Origin: Pagrus major
Taxonomy: Eukaryota > Chordata > Actinopteri > Spariformes > Sparidae
Direction: 5' to 3'
Assembly: GCF_040436345.1 (NCBI RefSeq)
Contig: NC_133225.1
Location: forward strand, 28,000,040 to 28,064,039
DNA: 64,000 nucleotides
Part shown: positions 11,503 through 52,538 of the stretch, one piece after another
How positions within the stretch are numbered: position 1 is the stretch's first letter
How the letters are laid out: each line of letters opens with the position of its first letter
Program-made: the position numbers and the translations under genes
The notes under the pieces: model-generated
The model's input: the letters and a program-made list of their open reading frames with translations, nothing else
What the model was told of the DNA's origin: nothing
Databases searched by the model: none

Positions 11503-12000
11503 CCAGTCCAAGGGCCACAAATGACGCCCCTGCCCCGTCCACGTGCCGTGAACCGAGTGGGGTGGAACAAGCTTTATCTTCAGTTAAAAAGCCACATTGA
11601 AGACTGAGAAGACCAGCTATTAGGTAAAGTGCACTTTACTTTACATTCTTGAATCACATACGTGTGGACAGGTGGACCAAAATAAAAAAGAGATTTTTGA
11701 ATTGTCATGTCATTATAGGCTGCATTATAGAAGGTATAGGTCTCTTGTGTTTCATATGACTGAGCCTACAATTAAAAATATTTATTCCTATCTCATATCA
11801 GACTTTGATCCTTTGTCTGCCTGCTCATCCCTGTGTCCAAGGACATTCCTTTATTTAAAAAGATTATTTAGCTATCAAAGCTATTTAATTGTTCTATAAA
11901 GGTTATTTGGGCATTTTGCTGAACGTAACTAAAAAGTAGTGTAACACGGGTTCACAGACGCGAGCACAAAATGACCGTTGCGTTTTCCAGCAGCAACCTC

Positions 12001-12640
12001 AACAACACAGACCTGACAGTATAAAGTTAATATGGGACTCAAACATACAGACCTGACAGTATAAAGTTAATATGGGACTCAACCACACAGACCTGACAGT
12101 ATAAAGTGAATATGGGACTCAACCACACAGACCTGACAGTATAAAGTGAATATGGGACTCAACCACACAGACCTGACAGTATAAAGTTGATATGGGACTC
12201 AACCACACAGACCTGACAGTATAAAGTTAATATGGGACTCAACCACACAGACCTGACAGTATAAAGTGAATATGGGACTCAAACATACAGACCTGACAGT
12301 ATAAAGTTAATATGGGACTCAACCACACAGACCTGACAGTATAAAGTGAATATGGGACTCAACCACACAGACCTGACAGTATAAAGTTAATATGGGACTC
12401 AACCACACAGACCTGACAGTATAAAGTTAATATGGGACTCAACCACACAGACCTGACAGTATAAAGTGAATATGGGACTCAACCACACAGACCTGACAGT
12501 ATAAAGTTGATATGGGACTCAACCACACAGACCTGACAGTATAAAGTTGATATGGGACTCAACCACACAGACCTGACAGTATAAAGTGAATATGGGACTC
12601 AACCACACAGACCTGACAGTATAAAGTTAATATGCCACTC
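12001..12640. repeat. 40-bp minisatellite array A (16 units)
   Basis: Exactly 16 head-to-tail units of 40 bp, each containing CAGACCTGACAGTATAAAG. Units vary at the next positions (TTAATAT, TGAATAT or TTGATAT) and at the unit start (CCACACAG or ACATACAG). The last unit ends TATGCCACTC instead of TATGGGACTC. It lies about 0.8 kb upstream of the thioesterase start codon. Confidence 0.97.
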
Positions 12641-12977
12641 ATGTCACTCATAGTTTTAAAACAAGACAATGATTATCTGGTCTCTCAGTCAAGGTTTAGT
12701 TACAGTTCAGGACTAATAGGCTACACATTTGTAAGAAATAGATTGATATTGACTTTTGACTATAGCTTATAGGCTTGTGCTAACATTGTATAGCCAGAGC
12801 TGTGTAGTAGAGTAAATTGTGAGCACTGGACTAATCAACAGGCAGCAGAGCCAAAGCTCGGTGTTATATTTGATTATTTTCTACATTTTATAGTCTCCAT
12901 AATTTCTCATTCATGGCCATGTTATTTATGAGATAGCCTCTTAATCTTTTACTCAAAGAGCATCAAACTGCCTTTTC

Positions 12978-13062
12978 TTCCGGGGCAGTATGCCCCCGGA
13001 CCTCACTAGAGGGTTCGAGGTCCACCCCCCATAGTTGAAATCCTGTGGGAGACCCTGAGTTC
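12978..13062. mobile_element. Possible hAT-like element remnant (in both duplicates)
   Basis: Contains GCAGTATGCCCCCGGACC, then a CTCACTAGAGGGTTCGAG segment, and ends near TGTGGGAGACCCTGA. This resembles a piece of nonautonomous hAT elements remembered from fish genomes. The same sequence recurs at 16515-16599. Weak recognition only. Confidence 0.25.
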
Positions 13063-13422
13063 TGTAAAATAGTTTTGCTAAATTGTAGGAAATAGTTTTC
13101 CGGTTGTTTTGCTAGTTTGAAGAAGATCGAAATAGATTATAATAGATAGAATATATTTTGTGGTTTTGACAGTGGAGACACTACCACTTTTGTCCACAGG
13201 GCTCCTGTGTGTTAGTCCAATTAACGGCAAAGCAAGCCATATTATTTGTCCGATATTTGTATTAAAATTCAACAAAAAGCATCAGCACCTCAAGAACAGC
13301 CAAGAGGTAACGATCAGTGACTAGACAGCTCCAGTAGCCATGCCCTTAATACTTCCTATCTTTAAGCCTTCATATAATGCATTGGCTTTGTTTTTCAGCC
13401 CTGAAGGTTGCTGCTTTAGAAA

Positions 13423-14212
13423 ATGTCACTGTCCTGTTTACTTTGTTGCAGTAACAGGATGAAAGGATCTTCAGCTTCAGACGAGATATCCTGCCAAGTC
13501 CTGCCAAGTGCCAGGTGCTTGTTTGACGAGCCTGTTCAGGTGAAGGTGGGTGGGCTGAGGTCGGGACAGTTGGTCACCATGAGAGCCACCTCAATCGATG
13601 AGAGGGGAGTGGTGTTCAGCTCCTCAGCCACCTACAGGGCTGATGGTAACGGGGAGATCGACCTGGACAGAGACCCCTCTCTCAGCGGGAGCTATGTTGG
13701 GGTTGAACCCATGGGGCTGCTGTGGTCGTTGAGGGCAGACACCTTACATCAGTACTTTTTGAAGAACAAAGTGCTAGAGCCCCACGTGGTGAAGTTGTCA
13801 GTACATGAGGAAGAGGGGGAGGGGAGAATGTTGGCAGAGGTGATCAATGAGAGGTTTCTGATTGGAGACGGGGTCAGCCGACTCTCTGTCAAAGAGGGAA
13901 ACTTTCAGGGAGTCCTTTTTACGCCTCCAGGTAGGTGGTATGCATCCAAAGTGCATCATCTGTTACATTATATCAAGATGTAGGGTTTTGTATGATCACT
14001 GTTGACATGTACTTTATGTTCCAGGAGAAGGTCCGTTTCCTGCTGTGTTGGATCTGTGCACCTTCATGTCAGAGAAAAGAGCCTGTGTGCTGGCCAACAA
14101 AGGCTTTGTGGTTCTGGCTGTAGCAGTGTACACTGATAAGCCTGACAATGTTAAAGAGATGCATCTGGACCGCTTTGAAGAAGCAGTGGATTTCTTACGA
14201 CAACAACCTAAG
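13423..14212 (+). pseudogene. Acyl-CoA thioesterase-like 5' exons, duplicate copy 1
   Basis: Coding exon 1 is 13423-13930 (a likelier start is the ATG at 13459, which gives MKGSSASDEIS). Exon 2 is 14025-14212. Both are bounded by GT-AG sites. Exon 1 encodes the acyl-CoA thioesterase/BAAT N-terminal beta-sandwich (CLFDEPVQVKVGGL, then YRADGNGEIDLDRDPSLSGS and VEPMGLLWSL). Exon 2 starts the alpha/beta-hydrolase domain (GPFPAVLDLCTFMSEKRAC, then LANKGFVVLAVAVY and HLDRFEEAVDFL). No third exon follows before the second copy begins at 14994. It could only complete a protein by splicing over copy 2 to the exon at 18583, which is allowed because exon 2 ends in phase 0. Otherwise it is a duplicated gene fragment. 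Confidence 0.75.
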
Positions 14213-14993
14213 GTGAGATGTTTGAGTAACTTTTAAACAGCAGCATAAAGTTACAAACCTTACACTAGCAAGGACCACACCATCAACAAGATACACTTTA
14301 ACAGTTTATTTACAATAATGGAAATGATATGATTGTAGTTTCTGATGATGGAGTTGCGGGCCCCAAAAACATGCATTATATAAGACAAAATTTAGCATAT
14401 CTGAGATCTTTGAGATCTGAACACTGAGGAGTGTCCAGAGTAGTGGATGGGAAAGATGCAAGGAGAGAACATGGTGTGTGTTGGTGGAACCAGAAATGGG
14501 TAACCACCTGTCCAGATTTTGAGTTGAAGAGAGGATCTTCCTGGGTTATATTCTGAGATTTCCGGAACTGCAAGTAGTTTGCGAGGGTAATGAAAGGGTT
14601 CAGTGATGATTGAATGTTAAAGAAGACGGGAGTGGGTTGACCAGTTTGGTTAGTTTTTGTTTCTTCAAGTAGTATACCATGGTATCCTCTGAGTAAAAAG
14701 ACAGGTCCAAAATTGCAGGCGTTGCAGAGGTTGCACAGCCAGTGAAGATGCGATTTGCCATTGTCACAAAAGCAGAAAACTGCTGGTTGCTGTGGATGAG
14801 GGGCAGGGGCTGCTGGCATCCCAGTGCCAAATGCCCCCGCTAGAGCAAGCCAGAAGGGGTGCGTTTGAGGTGTGGTCCTGCTCCTGAAACTCTGCTAGAT
14901 AACTCCAATTATGACACATTTGGTGATGAGCAAGTACTAATATGGTTTATATTTTTGCTGATAGCTTAGAAACACTATCCAACAATTACTCAG

Positions 14994-17900
14994 CATACGT
15001 GTGGACAGGTGGACCAAAATAAAAAAGAGATTTTTGAATTGTCATGTCATTATAGGCTGCATTATAGAAGGTATAGGTCTCTTGTGTTTCATATGACTGA
15101 GCCTACAATTAAAAATATTTATTCCTATCTCATATCAGACTTTGATCCTTTGTCTGCCTGCTCATCCCTGTGTCCAAGGACATTCCTTTATTTAAAAAGA
15201 TTATTTAGCTATCAAAGCTATTTAATTGTTCTATAAAGGTTATTTGGGCATTTTGCTGAACGTAACTAAAAAGTAGTGTAACACGGGTTCACAGACGCGA
15301 GCACAAAATGACCGTTGCGTTTTCCAGCAGCAACCTCAACCACACAGACCTGACAGTATAAAGTTAATATGGGACTCAAACATACAGACCTGACAGTATA
15401 AAGTTAATATGGGACTCAACCACACAGACCTGACAGTATAAAGTGAATATGGGACTCAACCACACAGACCTGACAGTATAAAGTTAATATGGGACTCAAA
15501 CATACAGACCTGACAGTATAAAGTTAATATGGGACTCAACCACACAGACCTGACAGTATAAAGTTAATATGGGACTCAACCACACAGACCTGACAGTATA
15601 AAGTTAATATGGGACTCAAACATACAGACCTGACAGTATAAAGTTAATATGGGACTCAACCACACAGACCTGACAGTATAAAGTGAATATGGGACTCAAC
15701 CACACAGACCTGACAGTATAAAGTTAATATGGGACTCAACCACACAGACCTGACAGTATAAAGTTAATATGGGACTCAACCACACAGACCTGACAGTATA
15801 AAGTGAATATGGGACTCAACCACACAGACCTGACAGTATAAAGTTGATATGGGACTCAACCACACAGACCTGACAGTATAAAGTGAATATGGGACTCAAC
15901 CACACAGACCTGACAGTATAAAGTGAATATGGGACTCAACCACACAGACCTGACAGTATAAAGTTGATATGGGACTCAACCACACAGACCTGACAGTATA
16001 AAGTTGATATGGGACTCAACCACACAGACCTGACAGTATAAAGTGAATATGGGACTCAACCACACAGACCTGACAGTATAAAGTTGATATGGGACTCAAC
16101 CACACAGACCTGACAGTATAAAGTTAATATGGGACTCAACCACACAGACCTGACAGTATAAAGTTAATATGCCACTCATGTCACTCATAGTTTTAAAACA
16201 AGACAATGATTATCTGGTCTCTCAGTCAAGGTTTAGTTACAGTTCAGGACTAATAGGCTACACATTTGTAAGAAATAGATTGATATTGACTTTTGACTAT
16301 AGCTTATAGGCTTGTGCTAACATTGTATAGCCAGAGCTGTGTAGTAGAGTAAATTGTGAGCACTGGACTAATCAACAGGCAGCAGAGCCAAAGCTCGGTG
16401 TTATATTTGATTATTTTCTACATTTTATAGTCTCCATAATTTCTCATTCATGGCCATGTTATTTATGAGATAGCCTCTTAATCTTTTACTCAAAGAGCAT
16501 CAAACTGCCTTTTCTTCCGGGGCAGTATGCCCCCGGACCTCACTAGAGGGTTCGAGGTCCACCCCCCATAGTTGAAATCCTGTGGGAGACCCTGAGTTCT
16601 GTAAAATAGTTTTGCTAAATTGTAGGAAATAGTTTTCCGGTTGTTTTGCTAGTTTGAAGAAGATCGAAATAGATTATAATAGATAGAATATATTTTGTGG
16701 TTTTGACAGTGGAGACACTACCACTTTTGTCCACAGGGCTCCTGTGTGTTAGTCCAATTAACGGCAAAGCAAGCCATATTATTTGTCCGATATTTGTATT
16801 AAAATTCAACAAAAAGCATCAGCACCTCAAGAACAGCCAAGAGGTAACGATCAGTGACTAGACAGCTCCAGTAGCCATGCCCTTAATACTTCCTATCTTT
16901 AAGCCTTCATATAATGCATTGGCTTTGTTTTTCAGCCCTGAAGGTTGCTGCTTTAGAAAATGTCACTGTCCTGTTTACTTTGTTGCAGTAACAGGATGAA
17001 AGGATCTTCAGCTTCAGACGAGATATCCTGCCAAGTCCTGCCAAGTGCCAGGTGCTTGTTTGACGAGCCTGTTCAGGTGAAGGTGGGTGGGCTGAGGTCG
17101 GGACAGTTGGTCACCATGAGAGCCACCTCAATCGATGAGAGGGGAGTGGTGTTCAGCTCCTCAGCCACCTACAGGGCTGATGGTAACGGGGAGATCGACC
17201 TGGACAGAGACCCCTCTCTCAGCGGGAGCTATGTTGGGGTTGAACCCATGGGGCTGCTGTGGTCGTTGAGGGCAGACACCTTACATCAGTACTTTTTGAA
17301 GAACAAAGTGCTAGAGCCCCACGTGGTGAAGTTGTCAGTACATGAGGAAGAGGGGGAGGGCAGAATGTTGGCAGAGGTGATCAATGAGAGGTTTCTGATT
17401 GGAGACGGGGTCAGCCGACTCTCTGTCAAAGAGGGAAACTTTCAGGGAGTCCTTTTTACGCCTCCAGGTAGGTGGTATGCATCCAAAGTGCATCATCTGT
17501 TACATTATATCAAGATGTAGGGTTTTGTATGATCACTGTTGACATGTACTTTATGTTCCAGGAGAAGGTCCGTTTCCTGCTGTGTTGGATCTGTGCACCT
17601 TCATGTCAGAGAAAAGAGCCTGTGTGCTGGCCAACAAAGGCTTTGTGGTTCTGGCTGTAGCGGTGTACACTGATAAGCCTGACAATGTTAAAGAGATGCA
17701 TCTGGACCGCTTTGAAGAAGCAGTGGATTTCTTACGACAACAACCTAAGGTGAGATGTTTGAGTAACTTTTAAACAGCAGCATAAAGTTACAAACCTTAC
17801 ACTAGCAAGGACCACACCATCAACAAGATACACTTTAACAGTTTATTTACAATAATGGAAATGATATGATTGTAGTTTCTGATGATGGAGTTGCGGGCCC

Positions 17901-18530
17901 CAAAAACATGCATTATATAAGACAAAATTTAGCATATCTGAGATCTTTGAGATCTGAACACTGAGGAGTGTCCAGAGTAGTGGATGGGAAAGATGCAAGG
18001 AGAGAACATGGTGTGTGTTGGTGGAACCAGAAATGGGTAACCACCTGTCCAGATTTTGAGTTGAAGAGAGGATCTTCCTGGGTTATATTCTGAGATTTCC
18101 GGAACTGCAAGTAGTTTGCGAGGGTAATGAAAGGGTTCAGTGATGATTGAATGTTAAAGAAGACGGGAGTGGGTTGACCAGTTTGGTTAGTTTTTGTTTC
18201 TTCAAGTAGTATACCATGGTATCCTCTGAGTAAAAAGACAGGTCCAAAATTGCAGGCGTTGCAGAGGTTGCACAGCCAGAGAAGATGCGATTTGCCATTG
18301 TCACAAAAGCAGAAAACTGCTGGTTGCTGTGGATGAGGGGCAGGGGCTGCTGGCATCCCAGTGCCAAATGCCCCCGCTAGAGCAAGCCAGAAGGGGTGCG
18401 TTTGAGGTGTGGTCCTGCTCCTGAAACTCTGCTAGATAACTCCAATTATGACACATTTGGTGATAAGCAAGTACTAATATGGTTTATATTTTTGCTGATA
18501 GCTTAGAAACACTATCCAACAATTACTCAG
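14994..18530. repeat. Tandem segmental duplication, copy 2
   Basis: This 3537-bp copy of 11657-14993 is 200 bp longer, exactly five extra 40-bp VNTR units. Differences seen outside the VNTR include A/G in the exon-2 GTAGC[A/G]GTGTAC stretch, G/C in exon 1 (GAGGG[G/C]AGAATG), T/A in GCCAG[T/A]GAAG, and G/A in TGAT[G/A]AGC. Confidence 0.95.
15338..16177. repeat. 40-bp minisatellite array B (21 units)
   Basis: Same unit as the array at 12001-12640, but 21 units (840 bp) and a different order of unit variants. Units 8-13 match between arrays in variant order, while units 4-7 and those after 13 differ. Confidence 0.97.
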
Positions 18531-18885
18531 CAGAAAAGCACATTAATACTTCAAAATGTTGTATTCACTCTCTTTCTCACAGGTGGACAGTAAAGGAGTG
18601 GGCATATTATCACGATCAAAGGGAGCAGACATTGCTCTTTCACTTGCTGCCTTTGTGCCATGTGTTCAGGCCATTGTGTGGATCAACGGCTGCAGTGCCA
18701 ATGTGGGCATCCCGCTCTACTACAAGAAACGCCAAATCCTCTCATCTTTACTGTTCGACCTTAGTAAGGTGATTCCCACTGAGTCAGGAGCTAGCATTAT
18801 CAAGCATATACTTAAAAATCCCCTTGCGGAGGAGAGCAAGGGCAGCCTGGTCTCTATCCAACGATATAAATATAGCTATAAATAG
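16960..18885 (+). pseudogene. Acyl-CoA thioesterase (ACOT/BAAT family)-like gene, 3'-truncated
   Basis: Exons 16960-17467 (alternative ATG at 16996), 17562-17749 and 18583-18885 join in phase to 332 or 320 residues; human ACOT1 is about 420. Family enzymes hydrolyse acyl-CoA to free acid and CoA, or conjugate bile acids to amino acids. The beta-sandwich domain is followed by a hydrolase domain with elbow GVGILSRSKGADIALS. The nucleophile is Ser (BAAT has Cys), but the usual first Gly of G-x-S-x-G is Ser. Homology runs through WINGCSANVG and NPLAEESKGSLVSIQ, then changes to RYKYSYK and a stop. The region that should carry the catalytic Asp (DDxNW) and His (GHxxEPP) is absent, so it is probably inactive. 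Loss of function is inferred; an uncaptured downstream exon or a misassembly remains possible. AATAAA lies at 19173-19178. Confidence 0.75.
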
Positions 18886-19185
18886 GTTGACAGGAAAGAT
18901 GAATACCAACAAAATCATTATAGCATGTTTATCAGTTAACCTAAGATAATTGTACACAGCTGAATGTTTTGCAAATGAGTTAAAAATTAAACGTTTAAGG
19001 GAATAAATTCTGTTGAAAGATGATCACAACCTGGTGAAGAATATTTTTGGTACTACTAGAGAATGTGATGCCTCAGCAGCATGTATGAGTGATTATGCTG
19101 TACCCTCAGGGTGAAGGGATTGTGAGGGAAGGATTAATGTAATTACATTAAAATTGAAACTTTGTATAACCAAATAAAAAAAGTG
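18886..19185 (+). other. Probable 3' UTR of the truncated thioesterase
   Basis: Noncoding AT-rich sequence after the stop codon with AATAAA at 19002-19007 and 19173-19178. There is no recognisable remainder of the thioesterase C-terminus in any frame. Confidence 0.35.
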
Positions 19186-20678: not shown

Positions 20679-20826
20679 CGGCGCTTACAGAAAAGTCAAA
20701 TCTGACTTCTGACAGCTGAAGTTTAATCCTCTGAGCACTGTTGTTACTCGTTCCTGTAACGTTACTAATTTCGTACTCAGATGGATCCAGGTGAGTCTCG
20801 TTAAGGAAACACACGCCCCGGTTGAC

Positions 20827-23800
20827 ATGCTGTCGACCTGCAAGGGTGCTGCGGCGGACCCCGGGCGAGGAGGAGCGGTGCCGGGGGCAGAGACACAAAG
20901 CAACGGCCACAGAGGGGCTCAAAGCGGGGAAGAGAGGCGACAAGGGCTCGGTGTCCAGGAGTGGCCCGATGGAGCCAGATATGAGGGAGGATTTGTGAAC
21001 GGATTTAAACACGGGGAAGGAAAGTACACCTGGCGAAATGGAGAGGTAATGTGACATTTTTACAGCTAAGGAAGTAGGAAGTACTTTTAGGAAGTAATAG
21101 GCCTATTTCTGTTAAAATATAGAGATTGTTTTGTTATGGCAGTTGGGGGGGACCAACAGGGGTCTTTGAGTATTTTGTTGGGGGAGGTAAAGAATAATTT
21201 AAAACAATATTATGTAACATTTTTACCTTAAAATAACAGCTTCAAAATCATGTTGATGCTACAGTGTCTTGTAATAGGGTGAATGTTGTCTCTGTCTCAG
21301 CCTCTCCACCCCCATCACTTGTTTCTGCTGTATAACTTCAGTGAGAGGGTGGGATCACAGCGTTACATACATGTTTACTTTAAGATACCAGTTTTCAACA
21401 CATGACATTGTTATGACATAATGATTTTTGTTCGTAGTTAGCACCTACAACAAACTGTAACAAACCTGGGATTTGTATTTACAACAGTGGTGTTGCACTA
21501 AGAAACTTTGGTAATACCAATTTCTACACAATGTTGCTTTAACTTTGATCACATCATTTGGAGGATGGAACAACAATGAAAGAAATAGGGTTGACCGATG
21601 TTGTTTCGAGCTCGTTTCCCCTATCGAGATCTTTGTTTATGTTTATAATTTAGAAGAAGATTGCCGGCTTCCAGTGCACTGATGCCATTGTGCACAATAA
21701 GGCTTATTGTTAAATTGTAATATATCCTGCCTCCATTTCATATCTCTGTCACAAGTGTTTGATAACCACATAGGTATGTATGAATATGAATATTGGCAGT
21801 TATATACTGTACTCCCTATTATAACTATCAGCATCAACCTCAGAAATACAGTATCAGTTGGGCTCTAGTGAGGCTAATTGAATGAAAAGGTTTGGGAAAG
21901 CCCTGTACAGAAAGCTCTTACATAAAACACAATGTCATTTTTTTATCCTTTTGTCTACTGTCAATTTTTCCTGAATTTAAATAAAGCAGATCACTTTTTG
22001 CTTCCCTTGTCTGCTGCTTTGTGTAGTACTATGAGGGCTCTTTCTACAAAGACTACAGGCATGGAGATGGGCTGTACTGCTGGCCCACAGGCCACAAGTT
22101 CACTGGCAAGTTCTACCTCAACAGAAAAGAAGGATATGGACAACAACTGTTCCCTGACGGATCCACCTTTCAGGTCAACTGGTTGGATGGATGGATGACA
22201 GGCAATTGAAGGATTTTTTAAAATATTATATCTATCAGTAAATAGCAATGTACCTCTCCCCTCCTCTCAGGGTTTGTACCATGCTGACCAGAGGTTTGGT
22301 CCAGGTGTTGTTAGTTATCCAGATGTGCGTCAGGATGTGGGTCTGTGGCTCGGGGAGCGCCTGTTAAAGCTCTGTGCCTCTGTGGAAGAGGGCTTTAGCC
22401 TGAGGAACCTTCCTGAATATGCTGCCTACATGGACCCAGCTGCCACAACAGATTCCCTGATTCAGGTACATGCTGACCACAGTCTCATCAGCAGGTCAAT
22501 AGGTTTGCCAGGCTACAACATCATCATTTTCATAAATACTGACTATTTGGTTTAAAATAATCCATCTTATTGTTTTTACTGAGATCCCAGCCTCAGCATC
22601 AAGTCTTTATAATAGTCAATCCCTCTTACTGGTCAGTAGTGTATTAGCACGACATTGTTATATCACTAAATATATTTATATGCATTTGCAAAAGACTCGT
22701 AACTGACCTCTCTGTTCCTCTCCTCTTCTTACCAGCCTCCCAGTAGTGGTGTACAGACATACTCACAGATTAAGCACTGCTATAATGAACAACTACACAA
22801 GCTCTGTGACTCTAAACATATCTAATATAACTTTTTCCCTGACCTCCTCAGGTGGATTCGGACAGAGATCTGCTGTCTAATGAGAATTGTATCCTTCCCC
22901 CCGGCATTGAGAGTTACTCAACAGATGGCGACCACTTGCCGCTGCCCTTTGGCCGTAGAAGAGAGTTGGATCAACACTTTTATGGCGAGCTGTGGGAGCC
23001 AGACGTTTATCCGCACCAAGGATATGAGCGAGACCCGCTTTCCAAACTGCCGTTACAGGCCCGCATGCAGGCTCACATACACAAACACAGGTCAGACACA
23101 GCAGAATAGTATTGCTTGAGTACTTGCACAAGGTGTCCTAAAATGTAGGTATTTTTGTGTGTGTTTCAGACTACAGGCTGAAAATGTGGGCTGGGACGTG
23201 GCCGCTGTTTTATCTCTGAACAGGGAACGTTTTGGTCCAAAAGGGCCTTTGGAAGTCAGTTCAGAGTTGTTGATCCAGCACGCCTCCCAAGGGGAACTGC
23301 AGGCTGTGTCACAGATCCTTCAGACTTGTTTGGTCCATCCTGATGTAGCAGATTCTCAGGGACACACTGCTCTCATCGCTGCCACAGTAACACATTATTA
23401 TTTCCAACTCATATTACTTTCAATTTTACTTTATATTTAACAATTACAATTAACAGTGGAAGAAAGGAATACTTAAGAGATTCAGAGGTTTTTTTTGTCT
23501 TTTGTCATTTTATTATTTGAGGTCTAATCCTCCACACTCAACCAAAAATGTTTTCGAAATATATATTTTTTTATGACATATTATTTAGTCATTCATTTAT
23601 ATATCTTTTGTTTTTGTGAGTAGCATAAATAGGCTACAAATGTAATGAATGTTGAATGTTTGTTTCTCTGACTGTTGTGTTTTGTTTTTTCTATCCATCA
23701 GGTAAACTGCCAAAATGATGTGATCCAGCTGTTGTTGGATATGGGTGCCAATATCGACAAGTTGAATTGTGAGGGCATGTCTGCGCTGGCTGTGTGTCAT

Positions 23801-26800
23801 GTCCTCTACTACCCTTTTCAGTCTTTGCACACCATTTCGGCTGAACCACCTGCCAAAACTCAAGTAAGATTCTACCTAATGTATTTTTTTTTTCTTTAAT
23901 CTCTGCTTCCTCATCACTACTATATCTGTCGTTCATAAGTGCAAACATAGATTGCAAAAAAATAGATAAAACATAATTAAAACAGGATGTGATAATTTGC
24001 TCATCCTTTTTGACATACACTCAATTTAAAAACATTACAAAGACAATTTAGTTCATTTTTTTTATTATCAGCTTCATAGATTTTTGTAAATATATGTTTA
24101 TTCTGAATTGGATGCCAGCAACACTTTTCAAATAAGTTGGGACAAGGGCAACAAAAGACTGGGAAAGTTGTGGAACTCCAAAAACACCTGTTTGGTACAT
24201 TCACAGGTAAACAGTTTAATTGTTGACAGGTGTCATGATTAGGAACATCTTCGAAAGGCTCGGTTGTTCAAAAGCAAGGATGGGGCGAGGTCCACCACTT
24301 TGCAAAACACATGATTGTATAAAGAATATTATTTCATTGCAAATAACTTCATTTTTGTTTTTAGTTGGTTTTTATAGTGTACCAACTCTTTTGCAATCGG
24401 GGTTGGATGAATCTGTGTTTTGTACAGACATTTAAACTGAAACAACCTCCAATGTAATGTGTCTTCAGGTTTTGAGGTCCCCATCTATATGTTGGAAAAG
24501 TCACCAGATCAGACCTCAGACTGCAAAAAGAACCCTGAGCAGCAGGACCAACCAGAGTCTCCTCTCTGACAAGTAGGAATGTATTATAGGCTGGATCACC
24601 ATGATGTTGCGCTAACATCAAAACTGTCAGTTATTTTATTTTGCTTAATACTGTGTCATTTTCAGCCATAACTGTGCATTCAAAGATACATTATATAGTT
24701 AAACATGTTGGTCCAACCTATCGGATGTTTCTACTGCGCTTATTTTATGTAGCTACTGTGTTGCTTTGCTGCCGTCTTTGATATCTACCTAACGGTGTGA
24801 CATCTCAGACAAACTGCTAGTGTGGGGTCAAATTAAGCTGTCATTTTCTGTCTGTGGATGGCCCAGCAGATAAATTAGGTCTCCAAGCTAGCGTTAGTGA
24901 AAGGGTTCTTTTTAATAAAATATTTAAGATGACTTAGATGTATACACTTTGAAATGAAATTGTAAAAAAAGGCAGTTAAGTTGTATGTAAGCTAGTGCTT
25001 GATGCAGCTGTTTTCTGCCTGGAAGTTACTGAGTCACTGATAATGGCCAAGAAACTTTCTAGATTTTCCACCCCCCACAAAAGTGTCACCCCTTTTGACC
25101 AGTTATGAAGTGTGTCTCGAAAATAAGCTGATTTATTAAATAAAGTTGCCTATTTGTTGTGGTACTTGCAGGACAGCAGTAGAGCTAATAGACGACATCT
25201 TAACACACAACAGTAAAGCATCCGCTGACAGTGAGCTAATCACTGAGCGCTGGCCTGTCCCGAATGAGCCTGAACACCTTCAGGAGGAGAGAAAAGAGAA
25301 AGAGGAAGAAGGAGGGGAAAGAGAAAGCAGGAGGGAGGATGAGAAAGAGAGCAAAGGGGAGGAGAGAGACATAGAGAGCGGATGTGATCAAATGTGTGAA
25401 AATGAGGTTAAAGGAGAGGGAAGGAAATTTAGGAACAGTGAAGAGAGAGAGGAAGATATTGACAGGAGAAAAAAAGAGTCAAGAAATGAGAATATGGAGG
25501 AGAGGGAGGAGGATGTGGAGGATAGAGTGAGGAATATTCACAAAGACGAGGATGCAAAAGAGAGAGAAGAGAGAGGAGATGAGGGTGGGCCTGGTGTGGA
25601 GCGCTCCATTCAGGTGATGGATGGTCACATCGCACTGGGCAGCGTGCAGTGGAAGGACTGTCGAGCTAAAGCAGCAGGAAGAACTCAGGTATAAAGCACA
25701 GAGGTATGTCCTGTGATTGGTTCGAGAAGTTGGTGCTTGTTTGAACTCACGTTTGTCTTCTGTCTGCAGCAGGGCAAACTGACCCCTCAACCTACCTTTG
25801 ACTCTGCCTGCTCCGTCAGCAGCTATAACATCCAGGTCACAGAGGAAGTAATGCAGTGCTCAGCAGAAGCGCTGAGTCGCACAGGGATTCCTCAGTGCTC
25901 TGACACACAGGAGACTGTACGCAAAATGGCTGCCATGAAAACCGAGTCAGTTCTGTCCTCTCTTTTCCTGTGCAGATTGTTCTGTTCTGATGACTCTGTT
26001 TTTGTTTGTGTATCTCTGTGTAATCTGATGTGTGTGTGTGTCTATCTGACCAGACATCGCGTTTGTTTGAACACCCTGAAGCTGTTATTGGAGCGAGGAG
26101 CTGACCCCAATGTATCTAGGGTCCCCATGCCTGTCCTCTTTTTAGCCATTATGGCGGCTGATGCTGAGGCTGTCAAGAGACTGCTGCTGTGTGGAGCTCA
26201 CACAGACATTCCCCTTCCACCTGAGGCAGGAAACATTTTTTTTTATTACTAATGTCATCAAACATCGGTGATATCTCAAAACTGAAACAAACAAAAATCT
26301 ATAAGCAAAGAAAACAAAATATGAGAGCATCCTTATGGCCAGCCCCTTCCCTTTTTCCTTAATTTCTATATTCTGATCCTCTTATAGAGAAAAGGTCTGT
26401 ATCCCCTGCATGTAGCTGCAGCACTGCCAGGTCCAGCTGGTCCCAGAATCATAGAGTTGCTGCTCCACGCTGTCACTGACCCAGACACGCGGGCGTGTGA
26501 CCACAATGAGACCTATGAACCATATAAGGTGTGTCTTCTTCTCCTTTAAGCTTTTTCCAAGTCTTTTGTAGTGATTGTTAAGGTGAGAAAAGTGTTTAGA
26601 TTGGAGATTTCCTCACAGATTTTCACGAAGGCCCAGAAACCACTGAGCACCAGTGAGAGCTCCCTGCTCAAAGAAGGGGGCCGAACAGCTCTGCATGTGG
26701 CCTGCCAGAGAGACAGTGACTACCAGGTCAGTACATAGCATGCATACACAGGCTCACGCCTATACACATCATGAAACAGGATCACTGGTGAAGGGGCGAA

Positions 26801-28064
26801 GGTATTTGTTGTATGTATTACATATGTTTACTTTACATGGAGCCACAAAACTTTCATTTATTCTATAAAATCTGTGGTGATAATCTTGCAAGGGATGTCT
26901 TTACTACTGATTAGATACAGGATAAAAACTTCACATGACCCTTCCGTTTGTTTGTTTCTTTACAGAATGCCAGTAAGGTGGTCGCCCTCCTACTCTCCCA
27001 CAGTGCCAGCACAGACTTCCTCTGGAGTGGACACTCCCCTCTCTCCCTGGCTATAGCAACTGGGAATGACCTGGTAACACCCCCTGTCCCACCAACACAC
27101 ACAAACACACACTAACACATGTGTACAAAACTTCACTTTGTCCTGGACCTGTTTCCTGTCCCTATCCAGGCAGTGGAGGAGCTGTTGAAGGGAGGTGCAA
27201 ACCCCAGCATCCCCCTGGGCTGCAGCGTGGGCAGCGCCCTCTGTGCGCTCACCAACATCAACTACCACTTAGGTGGCAACAGAGCTAAGATGGTACACAC
27301 ACAAGCACAGATACACAGACAAATAGCTGCTGTGAAATGTCTGACAGATACAGTAGGTTTCATCCTAAAGACATACCGGAGAGAGATATTTTATTCCACT
27401 GAACCCTCTTTTAGACATTAAACAAAAAATGAAAATAAGCTCCCACAGACTTTTAGCACTTACAGCCAATTTACCAATTTACAGCGACATGTTAGGATTT
27501 TCTAATGGTCCAAAGTGAAGCTGCCTAAATTGATTGTTTTTTTGTTTTATGATGAGTAAGTCATAAGGTTGACCCGTGTGTGTTTGTGTGTCTTTGATAT
27601 AGTTGGACTTGTTAGCTAAGGCTGGTGCAGACATCTTGATGCCAGTTAATTTGGGCGACGTTGAGGGAACTGCAGTTGACTACGCACACCTCTCCTTCAA
27701 CCAGGTAACACGCCAGCTGTAAAAACACTGCAGACATTTTAATTAAATACAAAAGCGTTGCAGTGGTGTGGTGGAGTTGAACAGGGCTATATTGATGTAC
27801 ACTCCACTTATATATGGAAATATATGTAACTAGGACGTGCATATTGCCAACACTCCCTTCCATGCTCTGAACATGCGGGAGAGGGAAACATACACAGCAC
27901 GGCGCCAGTTGCTGATAATGATGGGAGATCTCCTGAGACGGACTGCTGGACAGAGGGAGCGAGAGAATTCAGAGAGGGAACAACAACAATGTATCTGTCT
28001 TTTTTTGAACACATAAAACATATGATTATTACTTTGTGTTTTTGAGTATACCTGTAAATCATAG

Positions 28065-28115
<51 letters not shown>

Positions 28116-28949
28116 ACTGTAATAATGTAACAGGTGCCGCCCCCCCCAGCTGTGAAAGTCCACCACCTATAACAGAAAAACACAGGTACAAATACAGACA
28201 CATTCATGTAAGGCACCTCCTCTTTTCTTTTTCTTGTCCCTGTTTTTTTTTTTTTAACTTTTTTAACTCTTTCTAATTCTGTATGTGTGAATCTTTTTCT
28301 AGGAAACCACCGTTTAAGTTCTGCTATCACTGCGGTCGCTCTGTGTCTGTGAAGCTGACCGCTTGTAACCGTTGCCACAAGGTCTACTACTGCTCCACGA
28401 GCTGCAAACTGAAGGCCTGGGATAAACAACACAAGGAAGAGTGTGTCCGGGTGTCAGGTGGGAATCAGGGCTACTCTGTCCAACAGTTAGAACCCAGCAA
28501 ACCCAAACAAAACCAGCACCCAAAGCCTACCCCAGGAGCACTGAAGCTCGTACCATACAGTAAATGTCACCAAACTAAACGTTAATAAAATGACAATTTT
28601 TAACTTTCCCATTGTGTTTTTTGAATCCTTGGTGTATGTAGATAAAGTCATGCTCTGGATGATGTAGATTATCTGGGAACTTTGGTTTTGTCTTGTGGAT
28701 GAACAGAGCATGTAAATGCTTTGTCTATTTGTCTCTCTTCATCCAGCATCTTTTGAAGGCATCCAGAAGAGTGTTGTGTCTAAATCCCAAAGAAGCCCGA
28801 GGCCTCTGACTGCCATGGTTAAGTCCAAAACAGTCCCCCAGCCCTTGAGTGTCAAGGTTAAATCCCCAAGAGTCCCTAAGCCCTTGAGCATGGCAGAGAA
28901 GGTCTTGGAGAGCCAAATCAACCCAAAGGAAAACTACAGCTGCAACTGA
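20827..28949 (+). CDS. ankmy1: Ankyrin repeat and MYND domain-containing protein 1
   Basis: Nineteen coding exons: 20827-21045, 22027-22173, 22271-22465, 22852-23090, 23170-23386, 23702-23863, 24469-24572, 25172-25688, 25770-25945, 26054-26225, 26388-26528, 26619-26726, 26966-27073, 27170-27292, 27603-27704, 27834-27990, 28134-28185, 28303-28457, 28747-28949. All phases agree: 1098 residues (human about 941). Four MORN repeats (~50-145, e.g. [18 protein letters not shown]) are followed by ankyrin repeats near 290-385 and 660-900 ([42 protein letters not shown]), then a MYND zinc finger near 982-1025 (CYHC, CNRC, YC, then HKEEC). MORN and MYND modules suggest membrane and protein contacts; mammalian ANKMY1 is testis-enriched. 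The initiator is the ATG at 20827. An upstream ATG at 20781 stops after seven codons unless spliced at 20790. Exon 7 is the least certain exon, supported mainly by phase. Confidence 0.93.
23940..24405. mobile_element. Internally deleted DNA transposon in ankmy1 intron 6
   Basis: Contains AAGTTGGGACAAGGGCAACA, AAAGACTGGGAAAGTTGTGG, ACACCTGTTTGGTACATTCA and GGATGGGGCGAGGTCCACCA, then jumps to the terminal piece CCAACTCTTTTGCAATCGGG. These blocks match a Tc1/mariner-type element remembered from many fish genomes. The transposase region between them is missing, so this is a nonautonomous relic. The left end is diffuse. Confidence 0.65.
25284..25590 (+). repeat. Low-complexity purine-rich tract within ankmy1 exon 8
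   Basis: The sense strand is overwhelmingly A and G here and encodes a highly charged Glu/Lys/Arg run (for example [18 protein letters not shown]). The frame stays open throughout, so it is expressed sequence and not an intron. Confidence 0.85.
28069..28113 (+). repeat. (TG)n microsatellite next to ankmy1 exon 17
   Basis: An uninterrupted TG run of about 22 repeats ends 20 bases before the 3' splice site AACAG at 28133. Confidence 0.97.
28458..28589 (+). other. ankmy1: Alternative ankmy1 C-terminus with overlapping stop and poly(A) signal
   Basis: If the exon-18 donor (28458) is not used, the frame stays open for another 42 codons to a TAA at 28583-28585. AATAAA begins at 28584 and overlaps that stop. 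This would give an intronically polyadenylated isoform with a different tail ([18 protein letters not shown] and onward). Use is not proven. Confidence 0.4.
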
Positions 28950-31379: not shown

Positions 31380-31417
31380 GTGTGCTGAGCCTTGCGTCAG
31401 GCTCATGAGTCAACAGA

Positions 31418-31425
31418 GGGGCGGG
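31418..31425. promoter_or_regulatory. GC box upstream of the RNF14-like gene
   Basis: GGGGCGGG, an Sp1/KLF-type site, lies 173 bp upstream of the chosen start codon. No TATA box is apparent. Confidence 0.4.
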
Positions 31426-31597
31426 CATCAGGCACAGACCAGGAACAGACCTGATGCACTCAGGAACAGGGAACTCTGAACTACAGCACGAAACTGACCT
31501 AGAGCAGCACACAAGTTACTTCCAACTATTTTCAAATACGCTTCATAACCAGAGCGAGGAGGAAGTGAAGTGTCTTCCCGTGTGTTGGAGCGGAGGA

Positions 31598-34500
31598 ATG
31601 ACCTCGGACACTGAGGAGCAGGAAGACGAGCTGCTCGCTCTCCACAGTATCTTCGGTTCGGATGAGTTTGTCCGGGATGAGTCGAAGTCTGCCGGAGAAC
31701 TCCGAGTGTGTGTCGAGCTGCCTGCTGCCTTCATGGTGGCTCTGACAGAAGGTAAACCGGCCGAGCAGAGAAACAAACTCATTTTATAACACTTTAATCA
31801 GCAGGTACAAGAAGTATTAAGATCCGTTTCTGAAGTAAAAGTACTACACTGTGGAAATACCCCACTACAATAAGTATTATTTATGATTGGTGATGATTTA
31901 TGATCATAATCAACAAAATGTCATAAAAGCATCTCAAGTAAAAGCACTCATTATGCTGTAAAATGTTCCCTATCAGTGTTTTAATATTAAATCAATATCA
32001 CAGCTGCATTAATGTGTTTGTGTCATTTTACTGCTGGAGATGTTTGAGGCTGAGCTCATTTTAACTTGTTTAATCTAAGTCAACTCTTCACAAGAAAATC
32101 AGCCTGTTTTCAGTTTTGTGTCGATGCATAATGCTGAGGATTTGAATGAGGATAATGTTCTTTACCCATACAGGGATTCTTCATCCTTCAGTTATCACTG
32201 AAGTAACTAAAGATGTCAGACAAACGTAGTGCAGTAAAAAGTACAATATCGTATAGTAGTGGAGTAGAAGTATGTGGCACTAAATGGAAATTTAGCAGAA
32301 ATGGAAATTTGAGGACTAGAAATATTCACCAAACACAAAAATAAAAAAATCAGATATGTCACGGAATAAACAATCGAGTGAAAGACTAGACCATCCCAAT
32401 ATCCCTAACTATTTTGTGTAGTAGACATTACTGGAGTAAATGTACTTATTTACATCCCACCACTGATTAATTATAATTTCAAGAATGTTCAAAAGAAAAA
32501 AAAGAGTCAAGACTAAAATAAAGTGATATGTATGGATGTGTAGATGCGTCCACACCAGAAAAAGAACATTGAAAACAGCAATGTGTTTTAGGTTTTTGTT
32601 TATTTCCTTTGTTAATGTTGTCTTTTAGGTGAAACGCTGAGCCAGTACGAGATATCATTCCTCCCTCCTCTTCTTCTGACCTTTGAACTCCCTGAGGACT
32701 ACCCATCCTCCTCCCCTCCCTCCTTCACCCTCACCTGCAGCTGGCTGACGCACACACAGGTAATCAGTAGAAACAATGTGGGTCAATTCAAACATTATTG
32801 GTTGCATTTACAACCTGCCGGTGACTGAGAGAGAGATGACTAGATTGCAGTGGGTCAATAAAGATTGCATCAGTCTGTTTGCCCTCTCCTCCTGCAGCTC
32901 TCTGCACTGAGTGCTCAGCTCACCGATCTCTACCAGGCCACCGGAGGCGCTGTGGTGCTCTTCAGCTGGGCGCAGTTTCTTAAAGAAGATGCCCTCAGGT
33001 TCCTGGACATCGATACTCTGCTGGAGCTCCCCTCTGGTGAACACAGCACGCAGAACTGTAGCCAGGACTCATTAGATGTCGCACTCTCAGAAGCAAAGAA
33101 TAATAAACACACTCCGGCTACAGGACCGACAGATATCCAAAGTCTGGACCTCTCTGCACTGTCATTGGAAGCTGAACAGACCCTCCAAACCTCAGAGATT
33201 AAGGCTGACTACCAGGATGATCAGTCTAAACAAATCAGCAAGGAAGATTTCTTAAATGAAGGGAGTGTTTTGCTTCCCTCCAGCTCCTCAGGCCCACTTG
33301 ATGAAAGTGAGCAAGGAGCTGCTTCTCTGCCAAGAGAATCCCCTCCAAATGAAGACCAACGCCTCTCTGGTCGCTCCCTGACCCCCTCACAAGCTCTCCT
33401 CTCCCAGATCTTGATCTACGATGCAGCCCAGCAGCAGAAACAGTTTGCCACCACCGTGTTTGACTGTGGCGTGTGTTTCATGGGCTTGCTCGGAATGGAC
33501 TGCGTGCAGCTGCTGTGTGGCCACATCTTCTGCCGGACCTGTCTCTCCCAGTTCTGTAAGCTCCAGATAACAGAGGGGAACGTCCAGGGTGTCACCTGTC
33601 CTGATGCAGACTGTGATGCCGCTCCTACACCTGCACAGGTACAGTCCTGACCTGTCTGTCTGCTCTCTCTGCCAACTAAAGCTTCTCTTGGAATGTCTCT
33701 CTTTTTGTTGTGAGGCTTTGGGGTGCTGAGCAATGAGCCCTGCATTTTTATATAGAGCTTCAATTTAAAATCAATACAAAGTAAAATGCCTTCATTCAAA
33801 ATTGACTTAAATTCAATTCAAGGAACTGCCTGATGCTTCTATATGACCTACATAAGCAAATGAGACCATCACAAACATCTGTAACGGGGTCAGAGTAGTC
33901 ATAAAATTAAAACTATGTTTTATGGCAGAGTGCTGAGGATGAATTGAGGAGTCTCACAGCTGAGGGAAGAAGCTGCTCTGGTATCTGATGGTACGGCACT
34001 AAAAGAAAGTTCATGCTATTAGCGTTATTAATCTGACATAGCAACACACAATACCTCCTCACTGCATCCTGCAAACTATGGAGGACCACAGGTCACGGAA
34101 ATAGTAAATAAAGCATTTAACTAATTGTCCAATACAAATAGGCATCAATAAATTAGTTTACAAATGAATTTGTTAATCAATTAATAAATAAAGATTACAT
34201 TACAAAGTAATTAATTATTTGATAGTTTAATGGGCAATAAAAAGAGGAATTATAAATAGAACTAAAGAATATAAATAGTTCAAATTAAAAAGTGATTTAC
34301 AAAAACAACATAAAACACAGTACATAGTAAATCGTTTAAAAATACAATAATGAATTCAGAAATAAATAATGCAATTTAAAAATCTATTTGAAAATGCAGT
34401 TTGAAAAGAGAAATAAATAGCTGGATTCACAAATTGAATTAAGAAAACATATTTGAATCAGGCATTTAAAAGGGCAAATTCTTTTTCTATCTGCATTTCC

Positions 34501-36849
34501 ATTTACCCGCTGCTTTTCCTTTTCCTATTAGCTATTCCATTTGCTTTTTCATTTAGCTTCTGCTTTTAGCCTCTCCATTTAGCCTTTGCGTGACACTTTG
34601 GGCCCTGAGCTGGTAAAAAAAAAGTAAAACCATGCAAATTAGCCAATGTAACAAGCTCTCTGATTGGTTATTATCACCTGGCATGTCACCTGCAGACATA
34701 TGACATGCCTGGTGATAATAACCAGTCAGAGAGCTTGTTACATCTCATGGCTTAATGCACATAATAGTCAGATCAAGATCTTTATTAAAGGAGGCGATGG
34801 TGCTCATACCGCTTTTGTCCACAGGGGACGCCAGAAAACACAAAATTAAAGTTCATTGCAGCTGCTTTAAGTAAAAGTACTAAATAGGCGAAAATGGAGT
34901 TTATAATTTTATATTATATTATTGGATCATTATTGCTGATGTATTAATGTGTAAATATGCTTTTTTGCTGCAGGAGTTCGTTTTTTTTTTAAATATCTGT
35001 TGAGTCACAAGTTAGCTTTTGCCATTGAAATAAATCCAGTGGGGTAAAAACAAAATACAGCATTTTTCTCCAAAATGTAGTGGAGTAAATATATAAAATG
35101 GAGAACCCAAGTAAAATACCTAAAAAGTCTAGTAGTAAATGTACGTAGTTACTTTCCACCACTGGACATGTTGTGAAAAAATATACACATATTTTGATTT
35201 CTTATTTTGTTGCCTTTGCTGTAGTTTGAAGGTTATTATTTAAATTTGCATTGTCAAATGCTGCAGCGAGGCCAAAGATATACGATGTTCAGTCAGATCT
35301 GAAGGTATTTTTATGCCATGACATGCTTAATCTTCATCAGTGATCTCTGGTGCACAAACAGCGATAGTTTTTCTAAATGTCTGCAAACAACATTTTTGGC
35401 ATTTCTGACCTGTGATACACCAATACCCATATATCTGCAGATATGTTGGTACAGCTCAACAAAACACTCATTGCTGCTCTGTTTTCTCTGTTTGGTAGGT
35501 GAGGAGTCTGGTAGGAGAGGAGCTGTTCAGCCGCTATGATCGTCTCCTGCTGCAGAAAACTCTGGACTGTATGCCAGGTGGGTTTCCCTGACAGTATGTT
35601 CTTATAAAAATGAAGATGGATTCAAAGCATTTATACATTAGACTGACCAGAGATAAGAATATAGCAATTCCTCTGGGGATGTCAAATTATTTAGAAGAAA
35701 CTTTTCATTGGTCACTGCATAGGCGTGAATTAAAATGTGCATTCAAATGTTCTCATTAATGACAAGATCCATAAAAGTGATGTTTGTGGAATCTGCTCAT
35801 GTCTCTTCTTTCTTCTTCTGCCAGATGTGGTGTACTGTCCCCGGCATTCCTGTGGTTCAGCCGTCATCTGGGACAAGTCCAGCACTGCAGCGATGTGTAC
35901 TGTGTGCGCCTTCGCCTTCTGTGTCACCTGCAAAAAGACCTACCATGGAACAGAGGCCTGTCAGAAAAAGAAGAAGAAGATCATGACAGAAAATGATGCA
36001 GAGCAACCCACTGCTGCAGTGCCACGCTCACAAGGTACACAGGAAGTGTCATGTGAATATTCTTTCACTTTTTCCTGACATTTAATAGGCCAAAAATATA
36101 TATATTATTAATAGAGAAAAAAATGGTAGATTTAAGCTGCTGTAACTATTGTTTTCAAGCCTTCAAATATTCAATTAAGAGTAACACAAATAAATAACTA
36201 TGACATTAATAATTTCTTTGAATAGTTTAATTTCTTCTAGGCATTAAAATATTTTTATGTTGCCTTGGTCACGGGACACGACTGGTTGATATTTCATAGC
36301 AACCTTTGGTCAACAGATGTTCAGTTTTTGTGGATGCAGATGTGTCTGAAGCAGTGCTCTGTGTTGCTTTGTGTGACTCAGAGGGGATGAAGGCACTGTG
36401 GGACGACTATGTCAGCGGCAGTAAGCAGAGGAAACGACTCCTGGAGAGCATATACGGCCGCAGGTCATTGCAGAATGGTTTGGTGGAGTGTCTGAGTGAG
36501 GAATGGGTGGCCACAAACAGCGAGAACTGTCCCTACTGCTACTCCAGTATACAGGTATTTATTCATCCACCTATACAAGCATAGACATGTCAACACGTGA
36601 GCTTCTTGCATATCTGTCGTTTTTCTAACTGTTTAGTGTTTTAGACCACCTTGTCTTTGCTAATTCACAGCCTGTGCTGTTGTGTTTATGTTGCAGAAGG
36701 ACGGAGGATGTAACGTGATGAGGTGCTATTGGTGTAAACGGCTGTTCTGCTGGTCCTGCTTCGCCAAACTGCCATCACAAGGTTATTTAGACCACTTTGA
36801 CAACGGTACCTGCAATCACTTCGGATCGGACTTTTTCCCAGCCACTTGA
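31598..36849 (+). CDS. rnf14: RNF14-like RBR E3 ubiquitin-protein ligase
   Basis: Seven coding exons: 31598-31751, 32629-32759, 32898-33638, 35499-35577, 35825-36034, 36382-36554, 36697-36849. Phases agree and give 546 residues (human RNF14 is 474). An N-terminal RWD domain (EEQEDELLALHSIFGSDEF, then LLLTFELPEDYPSSSPPSFT) is followed by a Ser/Glu-rich linker. Then come RING1 (CGVCFMGLLGMDCVQLLCGH, CRTC), an in-between-RING domain (VYCPRHSCGSAV, CTVCAFAFCVTCKKTYHG) and the Rcat domain (NCPYCYSSIQKDGGCNVMRC, then CWSC). RBR ligases pass ubiquitin through a thioester on the Rcat cysteine, which should be the Cys of KDGGCN. An in-frame ATG at 31454 exists, but homology starts at 31598. Exon 6 might instead begin at 36340 in the same phase (+14 residues). 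It could be a teleost paralogue rather than the orthologue: the human acidic tail after CNRLFYAVD is missing. Confidence 0.88.
33935..34005 (-). mobile_element. LINE 3'-end fragment, antisense, in RNF14-like intron 3
   Basis: The reverse complement of GAGTCTCACAGCTGAGGGAA and GAAGCTGCTCTGGTATCTGA corresponds to the RT C-terminal coding segment SSFFPQAVRLL seen intact at about 53.67 kb. Short, truncated relic of the same family. Confidence 0.6.
34646..34743. repeat. 43-bp near-perfect inverted repeat with 12-base loop
   Basis: Arms 34646-34688 and 34701-34743 pair over all 43 positions except one U-U and one G-U in the RNA. The loop is CCTGCAGACATA. Lies in intron 3 of the RNF14-like gene. 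Could be a palindromic MITE or a precursor of a small RNA. Confidence 0.85.
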
Positions 36850-48179: not shown

Positions 48180-48480
48180 TTGGCGAGGGACCATGGCGTT
48201 TCGACATTTGTTGCGTGACACTACAGGATACTTTATAAGTCGGGACAACTTCCAGCCATCTTTGCTGTGACCAAAACTGGACATATCTCTTGGAAAGTCG
48301 GGCTATCTCCAGCCGTGTTTGTGGCAACAAAACCAGGCGTTTTTAAGGAGAACTGCGGACATTTCAAGATGTCTTTGTCGCAACCAAAACCAGATCATTT
48401 TTACAGGAAGTTGGGACATCTCCAGCTGTGTTTGTGGAGACAAAACCGGGTGTTTTTAAAGAGACCCCTGCCATGTTTGT
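48180..48480 (+). repeat. Imperfect ~57-bp tandem repeat
   Basis: The core CCAGCCGTGTTTGTGGCAAC and variants recur at about 48250, 48309, 48366 and 48422, each followed by AAAACCAG/GG and a T-run. A diverged dispersed minisatellite, about four or five units. Confidence 0.7.
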
Positions 48481-50217: not shown

Positions 50218-52175
50218 TTAGCTGTAGCCGAGGTTCTCCATCTCGTGGCGGTATCTTAACTCCGACACTTTAGCTTTGTGCTGCTTGCTCTCCAGATGCT
50301 GCCTGAAGTCCGTCTCCTGTTCAGCTCCACAGTTGCACATGGAGCAGTAGAACTGTCCGCTGGGAGTCACGCACATGGCCAAGTCCCTGGGGATGCGCTG
50401 CCTCGGTCTGGGGTTGTAGTACGGCCCTGGAGGGGAAAAGAGAGGAGAGATGACAGACAGGACATAAAAAAAAGTGAACTGTAGCTGATTCATGCCAGAT
50501 TTATCCGTCATGACAGCTGGAGGCATAGGCGGTCTGGATCCTCCCCTGCCTGGGAAAAAAGATTTGTCCCCCCCCAATAACCCGAATCAGTGACAACACA
50601 TCATTCTAAATTACATAATTATATGCACTGAAAACACTTGTGCTAATTAAAGATGCAAAACAATGTGTTTTTATGTTTTTAAAGATTGGTCCCCCCCTTC
50701 CATATTCCTCACAGTGGTTCGGTCCACTGCCAATCAACCTGCACCTCCGTCACCTTAAAGGCCCAGTATGAGTGTCTGTAGAGCGGTCTCTGAGAGTGTG
50801 GTGGTGCTGGTTGATCTCTGTAAGCAGCTACTTTACAAAAGTTAACTTAAAACAAATAATCCTGGTTTTCTCTTGTCACAATGGGTTAGGTTTAAGTACA
50901 AAAACACTTGGTTTGGGTTAGAAAAACAGTGTTTTGGCTTAAAAAATCTAATTGTTTTGGTTGCCACAGACACGGCTGTAGATGTCCCGCGGTCTCGTTA
51001 AAAATGTCGCCATAAACATGGTTAGAAGGTGTGTTGAGTTCTCCGTAAAAATCTCCAGTGGTGTCACTTCTACAAATGTTGAAACACCACAATCCCTCAT
51101 CAGAAATATCTACCGTGAGTTCATTAACATGTAATGTGAATGTGATATGACATGTTTTGTAACATACATCTAATAAAACACTACTTTTGCAGGCACCTTT
51201 GGTGTCCCCTTCAGGAACTGCACTTTTTCCAGTTTATTGTTTTTCCCCCAACTGTGCAGTGAAATATCCGCCCTCGGCTGGAGAGATACTTAAATGTAGA
51301 ACTCGGTTGGTTGTCAAAAATTATTGAGATGACGGGGCTGCAACTAATTAATGTTTTTATAAACAATTATCTGTCTTTCTTTCAGTTAATTCATTGGACG
51401 TTTAGCCAGTAAAATGTCAGAAAAATTAAAAAGTGATAAATCAGATTTTTCCAGAACTCAAGGTCTTAAAATTGCTAATTGTTCTGTCGGGCTAGCAGTT
51501 CCAAAGATATTCAATTCAAAATTATAAAAGAACAGAGAAAAGTACATGGCATCTAAAAAGCAGCAAATGTTTAGCTTTTAATTTTTGGCTATTATGTTTT
51601 GGCCTTTTTCATGACTTTATTTAATAAAACAGCTGAAGAGAGACAGGCAATGCGATGAGAGAAAGAGAGGGGGATGACATGCAGCTAAGGGCCACAGGTC
51701 AGGCTTGAGCCCTGGGTGCTCCCGGATGTTTAACCAAACTACCAGCATGACCATATGGGATTGCAGTAATGTTGGTCCGTCAGCCGGTCAGTCAGCCTCA
51801 TTGGTGGCTGAAATATCTCAACGGCTACTGGATTAATCACCATATCCTCTAGCACCTTGTGGTTTTAAGTGAAATGTTTTCAACAACTACTGGATGGATT
51901 CACATGACATTTGGTCCTGACATTCACATCACAATGTTAACATTGTCATTGTGAGCATGCTGATATTAGCATTTACCCCAACACACCAAGTACATCCACA
52001 CACAAGCGTTAACAGGGCTAGCATGGCGTTAGACTCTTAGTCATCTGGGATTACAGCTAGGTGGATCATCTGAAAAAGAGAATTGCTTGTGTGTGTGTGT
52101 GTGTGTGTGTGTTAACACAGCAGAAAAATGAGAAGGAGATAGAGAAAGAGATAAAAGACAGTGAGAAGGCAACCG

Positions 52176-52213
<38 letters not shown>

Positions 52214-52494
52214 CAGCTATTTTGGGGTTTGTCCATCAAGAAAACTGATTAAATCAGCAGAACGTTTGGAGTGTGTGTGTGTGTGCGTGCATGTGCGTGT
52301 GCGAGAGTGGATGAAAAAGAGAGAGTGAGACAGGAAGGGAATTGGCTCCACTGTGTGATTTATCCTGCTTTAACTGGAGCTGAGGTGCTACTGTTTTTTC
52401 TCTGTGGAAAGATAGAGACATGGGGAAAGACGGCAAGAAAGAGATAGTTGTTTGACGTCAGCAGAAAGTCTGACGTTACCGTGTCTGGATCTGT

Positions 52495-52538
<44 letters not shown>

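Follow-up and report, generated by a model that had tools for sequence, protein, structure and literature searches.

Two near-identical segments of DNA, each carrying the 5′ part of a thioesterase gene, stand directly one after the other in the window (by which we mean the whole stretch of DNA analysed, 64,000 bases long), and the question is whether they were produced by a tandem duplication in the genome or were placed side by side by an assembler. Self-comparison of the window put copy 1 at 11657..14993 (plus strand, 3337 bp) and copy 2 at 14994..18530 (plus strand, 3537 bp), the shared dinucleotide CA taking the second match to 18532. The copies are in head-to-tail order with 0 bp between them, and their starts, 11657 and 14994, define a repeat period of 3337. 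The best 60 rows of the self-comparison all came from this pair or from the minisatellite arrays inside it; the match between copy 1 and copy 2, ∼3 kb at 99.3% identity with array bases counted, was far above chance. The copy–copy junction (14992..14997) is gapless and reads AATTACTCAG/CATACGTG, while the left edge reads CTTGAATCA/CATACGTG and the right edge AATTACTCAG/CAGAAAAG; comparison of the three edges gives 2 bp, CA, common to both sides of the junction. There were no ambiguous bases (N) in the window. The copies thus stand head to tail and meet at a defined junction, as is characteristic of a tandem segmental duplication.

The alignment outside the minisatellite, 2695 bases with the shared CA counted, was free of indels and contained 4 mismatches, a divergence of 0.148% with a 95% Poisson interval of 0.04–0.38%. 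The mismatches, given as copy 1/copy 2, are G/C at 13824/17361, A/G at 14125/17662, T/A at 14743/18280 and G/A at 14928/18465. Two of them fall in coding sequence, the transversion GGG/GGC and the transition GCA/GCG, and both are synonymous; this is weakly informative because 35% of all possible transitions and 17% of all possible transversions would be synonymous anyway. The first-pass annotation had given the copy lengths, the direct order, the 2-bp CA overlap and ‘a few’ base differences outside the repeat, and in all these respects it agrees with what we found, with the boundaries exact to the base.

The remaining difference between the copies lies in a 40-bp minisatellite located ∼0.8 kb 5′ of each start codon. 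The array of copy 1 (11998..12641, plus strand) has 16.1 units in 644 bp and the array of copy 2 (15335..16178, plus strand) has 21.1 units in 844 bp; the motif TATAAAG occurs once per full unit, i.e. 16 and 21 times. The gap in array length, 200 bp or five 40-bp units, accounts for the entire difference in copy length. With full units coded by sequence, the unit order is ABCCDECBCEECDDCF in the first array and EBCEBEEBCEECDCCDDCDEF in the second, and the short terminal piece is identical in both. The best alignment of the two orders has 9 edits: four units are substituted, three fall in one gap and two in another (6 events when a gap counts once). Shuffled unit orders gave a mean of 12.5 edits (5000 shuffles, P ∼0.011), and the longest block common to both arrays is six units; given these observations, the arrays are of common descent and have since been rearranged several times. 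The earlier statement that the copies differ by exactly five repeat units is thus right as a net figure of 200 bp and wrong if read as a single five-unit step. Such rearrangement does not distinguish old paralogues from alleles. Elsewhere in the window there is a 57-bp tandem repeat at 48318–48464 (2.6 copies, 72% matches).

What is the gene that the copies share? In copy 1 the first coding exon (13459..13930, plus strand) encodes the acyl-CoA thioester hydrolase/BAAT N-terminal domain (PF04775) and the second (14025..14212, plus strand) ends in a phase-0 donor, AAG/GTGAGA. Their counterparts in copy 2 (16996..17467 and 17562..17749, plus strand) are likewise intact, with one synonymous difference each. 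A third exon, with the stop codon, is present once, downstream of both copies (18583..18885, plus strand). Joined, exons 1–3 encode 320 aa. The N-terminal domain PF04775 (Bile_Hydr_Trans) is matched over its full length (134.9 bits, positions 1–126 of 126), and by this predicted protein the gene is a member of the ACOT/BAAT thioesterase family. A tblastn search with exons 1–3 (E-value up to 0.01) hit these five exons and nothing else in the window, with no sign of another thioesterase gene. Domain and tblastn results therefore bear out the first reading of the locus, which had a thioesterase with two duplicated exons and a single downstream third exon.

Of the 210 positions of BAAT_C (PF08840), the joined exons match 1–113 (83.5 bits); the domain is incomplete, the stop codon of exon 3 coming 97 profile positions early. 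Two solved structures were matched, human ACOT2 (3hlk, E-value 1.3e-64) and ACOT4 (3k2i, E-value 1e-60). Like 3hlk, the window's protein has the N-terminal domain, the start of the alpha/beta hydrolase domain and an SKG motif whose Ser aligns with the ACOT2 Ser, the nucleophile; Ser in place of the Cys of BAAT points to a protein of ACOT type. Unlike ACOT2, it ends at residue 320 and lacks the last 97 profile positions, the part where the catalytic Asp and His sit. None of four motif patterns of the lost C-terminal part turned up when all six frames of the window were searched, a search that a diverged remnant could escape. Since exon 3 stops at position 113 of 210 and none of the C-terminal motifs was seen, the product is probably without the catalytic Asp and His. 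The gene may be a decaying or truncated paralogue; it may also have a further exon beyond the window, or the shortening may be a lineage-specific change. Two AATAAA signals follow exon 3 (at 19002 and 19173).

Over the whole window the Pfam scan took in 20 of the 127 stop-to-stop pieces of at least 80 aa, picked by eye, so the gene list is incomplete. At 20713–28582 (plus strand) a MORN repeat, an ankyrin match too weak for the curated cut-off and a MYND finger occur in succession, probably an ANKMY1-like gene; at 31409–36075 (plus strand) matches to RWD and RING, likewise too weak for their curated cut-offs, are followed by an IBR domain, probably an RNF14-like ubiquitin ligase. Two ORFs at 50221–57231 (minus strand) have C2H2 zinc fingers, of either the zf-met or the double-stranded-RNA-binding type; in the second ORF the surrounding sequence is proline-rich and repeated. 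No known RNA family reached the gathering score anywhere in the window. Each copy also has an antisense ORF of 172 aa (14379–14894 and 17916–18431, minus strand), which we treated as a chance occurrence; the copy 1 version, the one scanned, had no Pfam match up to E = 1.

Could the extra exons be used? The copies are identical at both splice sites of intron 1, which is of phase 1, and at the phase-0 donor of exon 2, AAG/GTGAGA; exon 2 of copy 1 joins exon 3 in frame. Splicing of exon 2 of copy 1 to the acceptor-like site just before the ATG of copy 2 (16989) would lead to an immediate TAA (QQPK, then stop), and an unspliced copy 1 message would run on into intron sequence and end after 227 aa. 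There is no AATAAA or ATTAAA in intron 2 of either copy; for a transcript reading through from copy 1 the first AATAAA would be the one at 15018, within the 5′ portion of copy 2. The sequence immediately 5′ of the ATG, TTTACTTTGTTGCAG/TAACAGGATG, resembles a splice acceptor, and because this site abuts the ATG a 5′UTR exon further upstream is likely. An alternative start exists as well, an in-frame ATG 36 bases 5′ of the one used. The promoter may lie within the copies or beyond them. From the left edge of copy 1 to the copy 1 ATG there was no match to the strict pattern TATA[AT]A[AT]; outside the arrays TATAAAG has 8 sites in the window, including a matching pair at 11895 and 15232 (plus strand scanned), and such near-matches are no evidence of function.

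These observations bear on two proposals of the first-pass annotation. That the duplicated segment includes the promoter is unproven, given the acceptor-like site before the ATG, by which transcription could start further upstream. That one gene has acquired two alternative 5′ units is permitted by the phase-0 donors and the reading frame; however, with exon 3 truncated, the product is probably not active from either unit.

We consider it probable that the pair is a real tandem duplication of ∼3.3 kb. One breakpoint would lie 5′ of the first coding exon of the ACOT/BAAT-family gene; the second would fall in intron 2, ∼50 bp short of exon 3, and the ends would have been joined via the 2-bp microhomology by end joining or by a replication template switch. 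Since the joining, 4 substitutions would have gathered and the arrays would have been rearranged several times; in a variant of this scheme the duplication took place between homologues that were different from each other beforehand. The original gene structure would be retained by copy 2 together with exon 3, while copy 1 would be either an orphan 5′ fragment or a source of exon 2a spliced to exon 3, giving an identical protein. The duplication would probably be nearly neutral functionally.

The main grounds for preferring a real duplication are the gapless junction, the lack of N and the resolved minisatellites. Two arrays of 644 and 844 bp, made of near-identical 40-bp units, appear with distinct unit orders, which suggests the use of long reads, able to span the 6.9-kb pair. 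We also counted in favour the unchanged frames and splice sites, the synonymous nature of both coding differences and the in-frame joining of exon 2a to exon 3. The CA overlap adds little on this point, because ∼16% of random joins would have an overlap of at least 2 bp by chance (computed with equal base frequencies) and 2-bp overlaps are common in end joining. Nor did we see anything unusual at the breakpoints: 121-base single-stranded DNA folds at the three junctions gave z of −0.65, 0.42 and 0.47. A perfect 16-bp palindrome, GTAAAGTGCACTTTAC, is located at 11624..11639, 17 bp left of the breakpoint at the start of copy 1. The window has three perfect palindromes of at least 16 bp, this one included; it was spotted post hoc, and we build nothing on it.

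A false heterotype duplication, in which the assembler set two alleles of a single-copy locus in tandem, is the main rival explanation, less likely than a real duplication but to be taken seriously. Minisatellite alleles of 16 and 21 units would be nothing out of the ordinary, and two synonymous changes out of two are what alleles of one selected gene would also show. The divergence of 0.148% (0.04–0.38%) is within the range of fish diversity, e.g. a π of 0.3% in Atlantic herring (PMC5524536). Divergence and array-length difference are thus just those of two alleles, and together with the synonymous changes they count against a real duplication. Adjacent partial-gene cases are documented: in an older zebra finch assembly 9 of the 11 coding exons of ZBTB11 were falsely duplicated next to the originals (PMC9516828). 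The present pair resembles these cases in having adjacent, allele-like copies of some exons of a gene, and differs from them in having neither a gap nor any N. According to the same study, the marks of a false duplication are a read depth of one half, gaps between the copies, discordant linked reads and k-mers present in single copy, with gaps as a primary characteristic (PMC9516828). No gap is present here, though one need not occur in every case. The microhomology at the join also speaks against an artefact, and 3.4 kb of extra sequence in a continuous contig would seem to need a specific assembler error. The caution raised in the first-pass annotation, that an artefact would look the same, was well placed: the sequence alone cannot separate a duplication from alleles set in tandem, and the divergence fits both.

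If the duplication is real, how old could it be? With the mutation rate of Atlantic herring, 2.0e-9 per base and generation (PMC5524536), the divergence would correspond to ∼370,000 generations, and with a five-fold higher rate to ∼74,000; the herring rate may not be that of the host, probably a teleost judging by the character of its sequence and genes, four substitutions underlie the figure, and gene conversion could push it too low. The copies would then have had roughly 10^5 generations of separate evolution at a fish-like rate, and the description of the event as very recent is too strong for this divergence and the several array changes. For the same reason an origin on one chromatid within a few generations, to which the high identity and the clean junction might point, is scarcely credible, as copies drawn from one template would not so soon have come to differ by 4 substitutions over 2695 bp and by nine edits of array units.

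A real duplication at this locus would have parallels. Shuffling of exons and regulatory elements by tandem duplication has been studied in Drosophila yakuba (PMC5460883). As in the cases described there, a tandem copy is able to alter gene structure or regulation, here by placing a second 5′ part upstream of a shared last exon; the present case differs in that the copies are near-identical and the gene looks truncated. Our literature search found no paper joining acyl-CoA thioesterase, BAAT, teleost and tandem. One could speculate that the duplication is not only real but fixed, and that a truncated, perhaps non-catalytic ACOT has gained two 5′ units whose use is tuned by unequal TATAAAG minisatellites; we regard this as very unlikely.

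The event itself is ordinary, since partial-gene tandem duplications and assembly errors are both of known kinds, and real or false its significance is local. If false, it would be a useful warning that a tandem copy of this kind, without a gap and looking like an allele, could pass in annotation for a gain of a gene or of exons. If real, it would be a further case of tandem duplication of part of a gene, cleanly joined at a microhomology and with copies that are still almost identical.
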